Shown piece by piece: positions 1,495 through 44,480 of a stretch of 64,000 nucleotides of DNA (the first letter of the stretch is position 1; each line of letters begins with the position of its first letter). Under the pieces are notes generated by a model that had not been told where the DNA came from, did no database searches, and was given only the letters and a program-made list of their open reading frames with translations. The stretch spans positions 186,001 to 250,000 of the forward strand of contig CALUXD010000002.1 of NCBI GenBank assembly GCA_944324665.1. Reading direction: 5' to 3'. The position numbers and the translations under genes were made by a program. Origin of the DNA: Candidatus Proelusimicrobium volucris. Its GTDB lineage: Bacteria; Elusimicrobiota; Elusimicrobia; Elusimicrobiales; Elusimicrobiaceae.

Positions 1495-2334
1495 ATGCCG
1501 AAAAACAAAATGGTTAGAAGGGAGTTTTTTAACAAAATCTTATTTTTGTCAGTTTTATTTACTGTTGTTTGTGCAAGCAATATATTTGCGGCGGTGGCAT
1601 CATGTTCTGGAATTACGGACGGCCAGACAAGATATGGCACAATAAACGGAAAATGCTGGGCATATTATTGCAGTGACGGTTCAATAAGGCAGCTGGGCAG
1701 TGTAGATTCATCTAAATGCGCCAGCTGCAACGGAGTGAAATATGCTCCTTTGGGCACTTGCGGAACCTGTAAATATGAATGTTGCAGCGATGGAAGCTGG
1801 AGCGGATGCAACCAAGCGTGCCCGGATCCTTCAGATTGTTCCGGCGATACCTGTTGGAACGGTTCAAGCTGTGTTTCTAAGCCGACCGGCAGCAAGTATT
1901 GGGGCAAATACAATGTTTTTTATAACGGCACTTGCTATTATACTTGCGATTCTTGGGTTTGCAATAAAGGTAGCGGATGGTCGTGTACCAGTAAGACTCC
2001 TGTAAGTACTCAAGGGGGAACTTGGAGTAATGTGAGCTATTTGCCTATTGATTCATATAACAGCATAAATACTTGTTCCACGAAGGTTAGTACTTCCGAA
2101 AATGCTGTGGTTTCTTGTTCTAGGCAAGGTGCAAGCGTCAGAGGTGTTCCTTATGAGATAATGGCTGAAAACGGTATTATTCATGAAAGCGACTGTGTTG
2201 TAGTCAGCAGCTGTTATTGCGCAAATAATCCGAGCAAAACTTTTACAAATCCAAGCCAATGGTACAGTTGCGGCACAAGGGCTTATTGTTCCGGCAAAAA
2301 GCTTACTTGTACCAAAAGTACGAAATCTTGTTAA
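1495..2334 (+). CDS. Secreted cysteine-rich protein, function unknown
   Basis: 279 aa. A basic N-terminus and a hydrophobic stretch (about residues 14-32, ending NIFAA) look like a Sec signal peptide. The mature part holds 27 cysteines, mostly in spaced pairs, along with many Ser, Gly and Trp. The pattern suggests a disulfide-rich extracellular protein; no catalytic motif is visible. Short motifs such as CSDGSWSGC resemble the Cys-rich regions of the pilin-like proteins at 42435-43406 and 58598-60070 and of the secreted protein at 43578-44480, so these appear to form one family of surface proteins. It is expressed from a poly-T-spacer promoter shared with the pilin gene at 35487 and is followed by a strong terminator. 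The start may also be Met6. Confidence 0.75.
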   Translation: MPKNKMVRREFFNKILFLSVLFTVVCASNIFAAVASCSGITDGQTRYGTINGKCWAYYCSDGSIRQLGSVDSSKCASCNGVKYAPLGTCGTCKYECCSDGSWSGCNQACPDPSDCSGDTCWNGSSCVSKPTGSKYWGKYNVFYNGTCYYTCDSWVCNKGSGWSCTSKTPVSTQGGTWSNVSYLPIDSYNSINTCSTKVSTSENAVVSCSRQGASVRGVPYEIMAENGIIHESDCVVVSSCYCANNPSKTFTNPSQWYSCGTRAYCSGKKLTCTKSTKSC

Positions 2335-35184: not shown

Positions 35185-35486
35185 TTTGCGGAGAAAGGGA
35201 AAATGCCTCGCGAAGTATTCTGTTTGCCGTTGAGCTTGCGGCAGGGAAATTTGGCGGCAAATATAGTCTGCGTTTTCTTTGGCGAAAATATAAACGGTTT
35301 TACCAATCAGTTGGGAAATAAAATAACTGGTTTTAAAGCCCGTTTATTTTTTTGATTGCAAAAAAGAGGGGGAAATAAGCCTGCCGTACGTCGAGGTTTA
35401 CCGAAAAGTCAAAAAACGCTTGACTGTTTTTTTTTTTTTTGATAAATTTTCTCTGTGCCCAGCAAGGGCAAAAAAGGAGGAAGTTT
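35185..35486 (+). other. Region upstream of the pilin gene
   Basis: About 300 bp without a gene; the first 200 bp show nothing recognisable, then comes the poly-T promoter. Confidence 0.5.
35403..35448 (+). promoter_or_regulatory. Poly-T-spacer promoter, copy 2 (14 T)
   Basis: TTGACT (35420-35425), G, 14 T (35427-35440), GA, TAAATT (35443-35448): a 17-base spacer. Otherwise nearly identical to 1356-1402, with one more T. AGTCAA and TTGACT form an inverted repeat around the -35 box. Confidence 0.58.
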
Positions 35487-35996
35487 ATGAAAAACTTAAA
35501 CAGGAAGGGTTTTACCCTTATAGAATTGCTTGTGGTGGTCTTGATAATCGGTATTTTGGCCGCCGTGGCATTGCCGCAATATTTTAAAGCGGTGGAAAAA
35601 TCCAGATCGTCCGAAGCGCTCTCTGTTATGGGCTCTATCGCGGCGGCTATGGAAAGAGGCAGATTGGTTGACAGCCAAAATAAATATCCCGCTGGATGGG
35701 ACGAATTGGATATAGAATTCGCCAATGTAAATGGAGTTACAATGACGGGAACATCGGCTCTTACCACAAATAACTTTAAAATAGAAGTTACTTGGGGCGG
35801 AACCCCCAGCGGCGGAGCGGATGATAAGAATGTCGTAACGGCTACCAGAGACGGTTCCTCGGGATATACGCTCACAAGGAATTTCTATACCGGCAAAGTT
35901 ACTTGCTCCGAGGGGAAGGGCACTGCCGGTGCAAGCGTGAGCGGTATTTGCAAATCGCTCGGTTTGCCGACGAGTACTACTCCAGGTGGCAATTAG
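35487..35996 (+). CDS. Type IV pilin (PilE/PilA-like)
   Basis: 169 aa from the ATG at 35487 (GGAGG eight bases upstream). The leader MKNLNRKG is followed by [20 protein letters not shown], the class III prepilin site with Gly at -1, Phe at +1 and Glu at +5. The rest is a compact globular domain with two cysteines near the end (VTCSEG...GICKSL) that probably form the D-region disulfide. It should be cut and methylated by a prepilin peptidase and assembled into a pilus or pseudopilus; no assembly gene is in the window. It is driven by the poly-T promoter also found before the Cys-rich gene at 1495. Confidence 0.92.
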
Positions 35997-42266: not shown

Positions 42267-42434
42267 TAAACATTTTATTAAATTATATTCAGTTAGACAA
42301 GAGGAAGAACGGAATATAAACGGCAGAATCCTCTTGCAAAGATAAATTCTTTTTTTCTATACTGATAGGGAAATATTGTAAAGGAGAAACATCTCAGGTA
42401 TACTTATAGAAAGACCCGGGTGGAGGAAAAGCAT

Positions 42435-43406
42435 ATGCTTAGAAACAAAAAAGCTTTGAAAGGAAGAAAAGGCTTTACTTTGATGGAAGTATTGGTTACG
42501 GTTATAATCGTCGGCGTACTAGCGGCGATAGCGTATCCCGTATTCAGCAAATCGATAGCCAAGGCGCGTGCGACCGAGGCGGTCAATTTGCTTGAGATAG
42601 TCAAGAATAAACAAATACAGAATTTTGCCACTACTGGCGAATATGTGACTAGCGTCTCTGATTTTAAGAAATTGACTACCGGCAAAGAGAATTTGGCCAG
42701 CGGCGTAGTAAACGAGAATTATTATGTCAGTTTAAACCAGGAAAAGGCCTGCGCCTCTGTATCATACAAAAAAGGCGAGAATGAAATTTTCAGTTTTTCC
42801 ACCGGTTATGAGACTCCCGGCCTTGGCTGCACGGGTAATGTTTGCAGCAGCTTTGGCGATATTATAGGCAGTGCGGAATCCGTTTGCGACGTGGCATTGC
42901 CGGAGCCTGAACCGGAAGTCCCCGCGTGCACCGGTTGCCCTGGCACGCAGCCTACATGCCCTGTCGGTCAAACGGGTAGCTATACTTGCAATATGACCAC
43001 CTGCCAGTGGGAAGGATCTTGTTCCCCGATAGATGGGTGGTGCGACGGGCAGACAAGGACCTGTACCAGCAATGAGGGGACAGATTGTCATCAAACCTGT
43101 TCCGGAACTACATGGGGCAGCTGCGTATGCAATAATGTTTATACCTGTACGCCTGGTTCGTCCGGTTCGTTCCAAAGCTGTAAAGGTACCTGCAAGTCTG
43201 ACGGAAGCGGATATGAATGCACCGGAGATACGGATAGCCATTACTGCTCGGACAAAAATACATGTTTGGCCTTTGACAAAACTTGCGCCGATGGAACCGT
43301 TCAGAAACAAACTTGCGATGACGGCGTAACGGTACTTTCCAGAACATTCCACATTAAAGGTGGCTGGAGCTGTGAGTTTAATACTGCCGCCTGCAAATGT
43401 GAATAG
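42435..43406 (+). CDS. Pilin-like protein with cysteine-rich C-terminal region
   Basis: 323 aa from the ATG at 42435 (GGAGG upstream). The N-terminus MLRNKKALKGRKG|FTLMEVLVTVIIVGVLAAIA is a class III prepilin leader and helix with Glu at +5. A pilin-like domain to about residue 155 is followed by a Pro/Glu linker and about 160 residues with most of the 27 cysteines (CTGCPGTQPTC, CQWEGSC, CHQTCSGTTWGSCVC). This is a pilin anchor carrying a disulfide-rich passenger. Function is unknown; adhesion or binding of a surface ligand is a guess. The neighbouring gene at 43578 encodes a secreted Cys-rich protein. Confidence 0.85.
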   Translation: MLRNKKALKGRKGFTLMEVLVTVIIVGVLAAIAYPVFSKSIAKARATEAVNLLEIVKNKQIQNFATTGEYVTSVSDFKKLTTGKENLASGVVNENYYVSLNQEKACASVSYKKGENEIFSFSTGYETPGLGCTGNVCSSFGDIIGSAESVCDVALPEPEPEVPACTGCPGTQPTCPVGQTGSYTCNMTTCQWEGSCSPIDGWCDGQTRTCTSNEGTDCHQTCSGTTWGSCVCNNVYTCTPGSSGSFQSCKGTCKSDGSGYECTGDTDSHYCSDKNTCLAFDKTCADGTVQKQTCDDGVTVLSRTFHIKGGWSCEFNTAACKCE

Positions 43407-43577: not shown

Positions 43578-44480
43578 ATGTTTAGGATAAAAGCTATGCT
43601 TGTTTTTATGTGCTTGTTTTTGTTTGCTTTAGCAGAAACATATTCCCAAACGGTAATGCCGATAATAAAGAATTGCACTACGTTAGGTCAAGAGCAGTTC
43701 CTTTCTTGTGAGAGGACATTGCCTAACGGTGAAGTTCAAAGAGCGCGCGGAGCTTGTGTATGCCGTAATTTGGGAGGAATGTGGGATTGGCAAGGGGGGT
43801 GTACCTTGCCGTCAGCTACATATACGGAAAGCAATGCCTTGGGGCAAACCAGAACATGTACTATGCCTAGTGAAGTAAGGGGATGCGGTACTTTCTCCCC
43901 GGTAGTAGATATAAATCCGGAGTGTGGGGAATGGACAGGCGGTCTTATTACTCCCGTATTGACGCAGTGTAAAGTGGGCGATATTGAGTATTTGCCTTCC
44001 GGCGAGTGTGATACCATATCCAGAATTTGCTGTGCCGGAGACCGCGCTTTGCCTACATGGAGTGAATGGGGAAAGGGCTGTCCGACGACGTGCAGTACCT
44101 CAAACAAACCATCAACAAGAACGACTTGTAATGGCGGCTATAAGTACAGAACGGTAACTTGCAATACTTCTACGGGAGAATGGCAAACCGGCGCTTGGGG
44201 GGATTGTGATTGCAGCGATCCCGCATATGAGAAAGTTACTTTGCGTGGCGGCGGTACCTGTTGCCAGCGAAAAGACGGCACAGGCTTCAGGTGTGCCACC
44301 GATCAAGAAATAATAGGTAACAGATGGGAAAGTTGGGGGCGGGACCCAAGTTATTTCTGTTACAATATGGGCGGTCCAAACGGGACTATTTTGGGTTGTA
44401 GCAACGTGGTAGCTGGTGCAGAGTGCAGTCCTCAGGGATCTAGATGTTGTCGTAATTTCGAAGTTTTTTATTGTAGATAG
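43578..44480 (+). CDS. Secreted cysteine-rich protein with TSP1-like segment
   Basis: 300 aa. A signal peptide (to about residue 23, ETYSQ) is followed by a mature protein with 27 cysteines. A central part, TWSEWGKGCPTTC then KYRTVTCNTSTGEWQTGAWGDC, resembles a thrombospondin type-1 repeat. Nearly the same wording (REVTCNTYTGEWQSGEWSIC) occurs in the pilin-like protein at 58598-60070. No catalytic motif is visible. The gene is preceded by GGAGG and ends in a terminator shared in sequence with that of the 1495 gene. Likely an extracellular binding or structural protein. Confidence 0.75.
   Translation: MFRIKAMLVFMCLFLFALAETYSQTVMPIIKNCTTLGQEQFLSCERTLPNGEVQRARGACVCRNLGGMWDWQGGCTLPSATYTESNALGQTRTCTMPSEVRGCGTFSPVVDINPECGEWTGGLITPVLTQCKVGDIEYLPSGECDTISRICCAGDRALPTWSEWGKGCPTTCSTSNKPSTRTTCNGGYKYRTVTCNTSTGEWQTGAWGDCDCSDPAYEKVTLRGGGTCCQRKDGTGFRCATDQEIIGNRWESWGRDPSYFCYNMGGPNGTILGCSNVVAGAECSPQGSRCCRNFEVFYCR

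Follow-up and report, generated by a model that had tools for sequence, protein, structure and literature searches.

A family of sigma70-type promoters in Candidatus Proelusimicrobium volucris (genome G000), in which most of the spacer between the −35 and −10 elements is a run of a single base, probably represents promoter-spacer phase variation of surface genes, similar to that of porA. The promoters stand before genes of type IV pilins and of cysteine-rich proteins, and the tracts differ in length between nearly identical copies.

Two copies of the promoter in the window

The window, i.e., the whole stretch of 64,000 nucleotides that was analyzed, is G000:C2:186001-250000 and belongs to a genome of 1,496,100 bases (4 contigs, 99.71% complete). 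Direct reading places TTGACTG-T(14)-GATAAATT at positions 35420–35448 of the forward strand. This element reads as a sigma70-type promoter made of a −35 element, a T-tract spacer, and an extended −10 element (TGA-TAAATT). The −35 element TTGACT lies at 35420–35425, the T(14) tract that makes up most of the spacer at 35427–35440, preceded by a single G, and the −10 element TAAATT, with TGA before it, at 35443–35448. An independent consensus scan returned the same TTGACT-17-TAAATT arrangement, of sigma70 type and with TG ahead of the −10 element, and the −35 hexamer recurs in an ordinary pilin promoter of G000 with a 17-base spacer. The position of the homopolymer between the −35 and −10 elements was confirmed here by reading and scan, and also in the 95 distinct elements described below. 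GATAAA was considered as the −10 element and set aside for TAAATT, because the variants GATAAATT, GATACAGT, GATAAAGT, and GATAGATT among the element copies compared all keep a TANANT core and because the control promoters then have 17-base spacers.

The gene behind this promoter (35487–35996, forward strand) starts with an ATG at 35487, 38 bases from the end of the element, and encodes a type IV pilin of 169 aa (PF07963, E 3.4e-9); a poly-T promoter with 14 T before such a gene is what the preliminary description had reported. On the same strand, a GTACGT sequence at 35386–35391 (box A), 34 bases before the −35 element, is a candidate activator site, and the leader of the pilin mRNA contains a small, weak stem-loop at 35456–35470 (TGCCCAGCAAGGGCA; fold of 35449–35486, −11.8 kcal/mol, z −1.64). 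When one pilin mRNA leader was folded for each of four species, stem-loops were seen in G014 (z −4.6) and G011 (z −3.7), a weak one in the window (z −1.6), and none in G009 (z −0.3).

The first copy, also on the forward strand, consists of a −35 element at 1374–1379, a T(13) tract at 1381–1393, and a −10 element TAAATT at 1396–1401, with a spacer of 16; all were read directly, and the tract and the −10 element were also found by the genome scan. It precedes the gene of a cysteine-rich protein (1495–2334, forward strand; 279 aa, 10% Cys) with a signal-peptide-like N terminus, which belongs to no Pfam family and matches the A1 cysteine domain. The two copies are nearly identical although the genes differ, as had been claimed, sharing TCAAAAAACGCTTGACTG-T(n)-GATAAATTT over about 40 bases. 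The pilin copy indeed has one T more than the first and a 17-base spacer (T(14) and 17 at 35420 vs. T(13) and 16 at 1374).

The A1 cysteine domain, defined as G000:C2:187717-187821, was found 15 times in G000, 23 times in G007, 4 times in G011, 34 times in G017, and 2 times in G004, and was absent from the other 13 of the 18 genus genomes searched. A Pfam search with 5 + 7 cysteine-rich proteins gave no match above the cut-off and one sub-threshold match to cEGF (E 0.27). The element precedes 7 of the 15 A1 genes of G000, and it also precedes one more cysteine-rich gene (L009), which has no A1 match; within 420 bases of the other 8 A1 genes no such promoter was found. Further along the window, a cysteine-rich gene with an A1 domain lies at 43578–44480 (G000:C2:229968); up to 420 bases from that domain, no promoter with a T-tract was seen. 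At 42420–43406, a pilin-type N terminus is fused to a cysteine-rich tail; this gene resembles L042 of G007, which has a poly-T promoter, but in place of an intact element, the sequence upstream of it has just GATAAATTC and then T7.

Copies across the genome and the genus

Could the element be a general promoter, or does it belong to particular genes? With two or fewer mismatches, its 15-base core has 3 matches in the window, compared with a shuffle mean of 0.68, and none of 100 shuffles reached 3. Over the whole 1,496,100 bases of G000, 11 copies match exactly or nearly so, with 14 T in two, 13 T in four, 12 T in four, and 10 T in one; one of the 12-T copies has a T-to-G change at the 5′ edge of the tract. 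The preliminary description, which had placed the same element at two surface-protein genes, thus understated its spread. All 11 copies precede genes with signal-like N termini, 3 of pilins (L005, L007, and L010) and 8 of cysteine-rich proteins, the latter including a 269-aa gene behind L011 that is cysteine-rich on direct reading and that the classifying script had filed as a contig end (edge of L006). We infer that these pilins and cysteine-rich proteins lie at the cell surface. None of the 11 copies stands before a housekeeping gene, which rules out a general housekeeping promoter, the refuting case named in the preliminary description. A pilin-only promoter is ruled out by the 8 cysteine-rich genes, and a promoter of all pilins by the fact that 3 of the 18 PF07963 genes of G000 have the element. 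Furthermore, every tract of at least 12 T in the genome (10 of 10) lies inside these promoters. Most copies are alike in the promoter core only and differ in their further flanks. Elsewhere in G000, a pilin-type N terminus was met within a 2290-aa open frame (L225, G000:C2:262519).

The strict G000 form occurs in 2 of 60 genomes, G000 and G007. Looser forms occur in 4 of the 18 genus genomes, with 11 copies in G000, 24 in G007, 26 in G011, and 35 in G017, and these numbers strongly support the earlier notion of a reusable element. Tracts of at least 12 T lie inside the element in 22 of 22 cases in G007, 16 of 16 in G017, and 22 of 27 in G011, where the other five are imperfect copies or lie near contig ends. 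A pattern that allowed any spacer of 8–18 bases had 30, 45, 43, and 58 matches in the four genomes vs. 5–7 in a backward control; mixed-spacer matches exist and, among the matches listed, some resemble genuine promoters built in the same way. In a wide contig scan, 38 stretches were found, and those outside CASEVY (the series of G007) were single matches in other organisms, which we take as chance. A scan of viral contigs for tract-length variants found none.

We assembled 95 distinct elements from one genome per species, with L046 merged with L026 and one contig-end copy of G017 left out. By script, 26 of them stand before pilins, 58 before cysteine-rich genes, 6 at contig ends, and 5 before other genes. 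Among the last five, L036 and L182 (met at the edge of L032) proved cysteine-rich on reading, L252 and L256 precede broken-looking pilin genes of G011, and L260 of G017 is unclassified. In the four genomes, the tract stays pure although the bases before it have changed, and interrupted or short tracts were few among those read (L195, L330 (G011), and L329 (G017)).

Homopolymers also stand in pilin promoters of other make. G014 has 108 pilin-type genes and 55 tracts of at least 12 T; in a sample of 28 of these, 25 precede pilins, 2 lie at contig ends, and 1 precedes another gene. The flanks differ there (cTTGACAACG-T15-CTACAAT and relatives), and the apparent spacers, counted by eye, are mostly 19–20. 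Similarly, poly-T tracts precede pilins in G003 (9, plus 3 contig ends, of 12), G001 (3 of 3), G002 (3, plus 1 end), G010 (2 of 2), and G005 (1 of 2); since five G003 loci and some of G001, G010, and G005 were picked for a nearby pilin, these are counts and not rates. In G009, seven pilin promoters with nearly identical flanks read GCTTGAC(TT, TTA or AAT)-G(9, 10, 10, 11, 12, 15, 16)-TATTAT. A neighboring pilin was already known when L303, L306, L307, and L308 were chosen, and the others were taken by the tract alone; other G tracts of this genome lie elsewhere (4) or at a contig end (2). Because G009 has poly-G in the same place, its promoters argue that the homopolymer nature of the tract, rather than T itself, is what is kept. 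Among the genus species looked at, the base is T in ten and G in one. In G009:C38 (L312/L345), a gene that does not encode a pilin is preceded by a promoter-like TTGACT-17-TATAAT whose spacer contains a G8 tract.

The tract is not a genus-wide rule. Pilins without it were sampled in G008 (8), G012 (5), G013 (2), G015 (5), and G006 (1), and the single G004 tract looked at does not precede a pilin. Many pilins of the tract-free species (L266–L283 of G008, G012, and G015; L285 and L305) have a hairpin GGCTGTTATATTTTGGG...CTCAAATATAACGGCCGTTTTT some 60 bases upstream of the start codon, which looks like a leader terminator or attenuator. The number of pilin-type genes ranges from 12 (G006) to 112 (G008) within the genus, in genomes of 1.0–1.7 Mb. 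In G000 itself, one pilin without the tract, which has a counterpart in G007, has the promoter TTGACT-17 mixed bases-TAAACT, and a second has TTGACA-17-TATATT. These ordinary promoters serve as controls and indicate that the genus can write this promoter without a homopolymer. Another promoter of similar appearance, TTGACA-17-TACATT, precedes the gene of a phage-type major head protein (L326; phrog_10, E 6e-59) in three species (L326, L327, and L328), possibly part of a domesticated prophage or gene transfer agent.

Spacer length and the possible roles of the tract

Which feature of the spacer is conserved? In the 95 elements, the distance from TTGACN to TANANT is 16 in 48, 15 in 24, and 17 in 12 (15–17 in 84 of 95), and more rarely 14 (5 elements), 18 (2), or 11–13 (4); the two spacers of 11 are L184 of G007 and L164 of G017. 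The leader before the tract is TTGACTG in G000 and G007 and TTGACTTG in G017 and G011. The mean T count is 12.6 with TTGACTG (n = 30) and 11.7 with TTGACTTG (n = 53; P = 1.6e-5), whereas the total length is equal (27.6 vs. 27.7, P = 0.53); this comparison excludes the 12 elements that have neither leader, and the P values are only a guide because related copies are not independent. Since T counts differ but total lengths are equal, the −35/−10 distance is conserved and not the T count.

Lengths differ between nearly identical copies or relatives. The three pilin promoters of G000 (L005, L007, and L010) have 1–2 differences in 75 flanking bases and tracts of 14, 10, and 12 T, and the tracts of G009 range from 9 to 16 G. 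Between syntenic promoters of G000 and G007, the total length is equal in 7 of 11 pairs and different in 4 (shuffle mean 4.0 equal, P 0.05), and the equal count would be 8 of 11 if L003 were matched to L182 rather than L032. The 7 equal pairs indicate that lengths change but do not drift freely.

These observations can be explained by phase variation through the spacer. Replication slippage would add or remove tract bases and so shift the −35 element relative to the −10 element, and transcription of the single surface gene downstream would rise or fall. In such a case, tract lengths would vary within a strain, each of the 11 G000 genes would switch independently, and a population would contain cells with many different sets of pilins and secreted cysteine-rich proteins switched on, presumably to the benefit of the cell. 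A porA-like model would predict strong activity for the 35420 copy (17), weaker activity at 16 and 15, and almost none for L007 (13). The term phase-variable switch, used in the preliminary description, is well motivated by the length differences between paralogues and by the exchange of T for G; the switching part of the term is drawn from comparative anatomy. Several findings count against switching: the narrow spacing, the 7 equal syntenic lengths, the two spacers of 11, the G014 spacers of 19–20, the presence of the element at only 3 of 18 pilin-type and 7 of 15 A1 genes of G000, and the tract-free pilins of congeners. The extended −10 element may also make the promoter tolerant of spacing. 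The usual optimum spacer is shorter than 19–20 bases, and assemblies can miscount homopolymers.

The narrow spacing (84 of 95 at 15–17) and the equal lengths of 7 of the 11 syntenic pairs would also suit a shared regulated promoter whose T-tract is structural, i.e., a stiff spacer with a narrow groove that is recognized by RNA polymerase or a nucleoid protein or responds to supercoiling. The GTACGT box would serve as an activator site, and the length would be fixed by function and would not switch. This account is favored further by the upstream sequences: of the 91 promoters whose upstream sequence was long enough, 40 have a GTACGT-like box (about 4 in shuffles), mostly 33–35 bases before TTGAC, and 10 of 32 G017 promoters have a different upstream module. 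However, it is hard to reconcile with poly-G in the same place in the G009 pilin promoters, with nearly identical promoters of different lengths, or with the two G000 pilin genes that are served by ordinary mixed 17-base spacers, and we consider it unlikely. The box and the G017 module suggest a regulator that would act in addition to the tract.

Some loci differ between G000 and G007 in what the promoter serves. At two syntenic positions (L004/L028 and L005/L048, the latter with a cysteine-rich gene before the pilin) the genes are different, and at L006 and L051 the N-terminal parts are shared and the C-terminal parts differ, which suggests gene exchange at these loci. The promoter could then be mainly a recombination anchor, spread by duplication and gene conversion, that allows gene exchange between copies, with the tract as a passenger. 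Nevertheless, the similarity between most copies ends at the promoter core, a mixed sequence would serve equally well, and it would go unexplained why the tract is pure and confined to these promoters, so that we regard such a role as improbable. Least credible of all is that the promoters form an ordinary family of constant length and that the apparent differences come from homopolymers wrongly assembled or sequenced. All genomes are assembled, at least some from metagenomes, near-identical copies are prone to mis-assembly, and some copies lie at contig ends (L026, L046, and L179). However, the existence, purity, and placement of the element do not depend on exact length, tract lengths in G009 are up to 7 G apart, and the sequence further out differs between copies.

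Known systems and meaning for the genus

To our knowledge, phase variation through the promoter spacer has been described for a handful of genes in a handful of pathogens. In PMC2791445, porA, fetA, and opc of Neisseria meningitidis are described with a homopolymer between −10 and −35; porA and fetA share with the present promoters a homopolymeric spacer and a surface gene downstream. The poly-G pilin promoters of G009 are especially similar. The present system differs in having poly-T in most species and 11 to 35 copies per genome before two gene families, shows no sign of kinship with Neisseria, and is described here by sequence comparison. According to PMC7864442, tp0126 of Treponema pallidum, an ompW homologue, has its tract between −35 and −10 and works best at a distance of 17 bases, which is also the optimum for porA; the same paper puts the opc tract across the −35. 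The tp0126 tract is poly-G, serves one gene, and has been measured, whereas switching here would follow from comparison. According to PMC4081817, the adhesin gene sabA of Helicobacter pylori has a poly-T tract beside an extended −10 promoter, with lengths of T5–T22 in strains; that tract adjoins the −35 and shifts UP-like elements. A rheostat of the sabA type, with the tract upstream of −35, does not fit the window copy, whose tract at 35427–35440 lies between −35 and −10. Among the papers listed for Elusimicrobiota phase variation and for poly-T spacer promoters, none appeared to describe this element.

In several species of the genus, the homopolymer spacer appears to be the standard promoter design for whole gene families, those of pilins and of cysteine-rich proteins, and through slipping tracts single cells would probably turn surface genes up or down at random. 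We tentatively extend this to a combinatorial surface code, somewhat short of an even chance in our judgment, in which dozens of pilin and cysteine-rich genes would each carry an autonomous homopolymer switch, a random subset would be expressed per cell, and the base of the switch would be exchanged while its place is kept. If true, such a code would be the largest set of promoter-spacer contingency loci known to us. The homopolymer design, if it does act as a switch, would allow a natural comparison of transcription at different spacer lengths and would suggest cell-by-cell diversification of pili in a genus with up to 112 pilin-type genes per genome.
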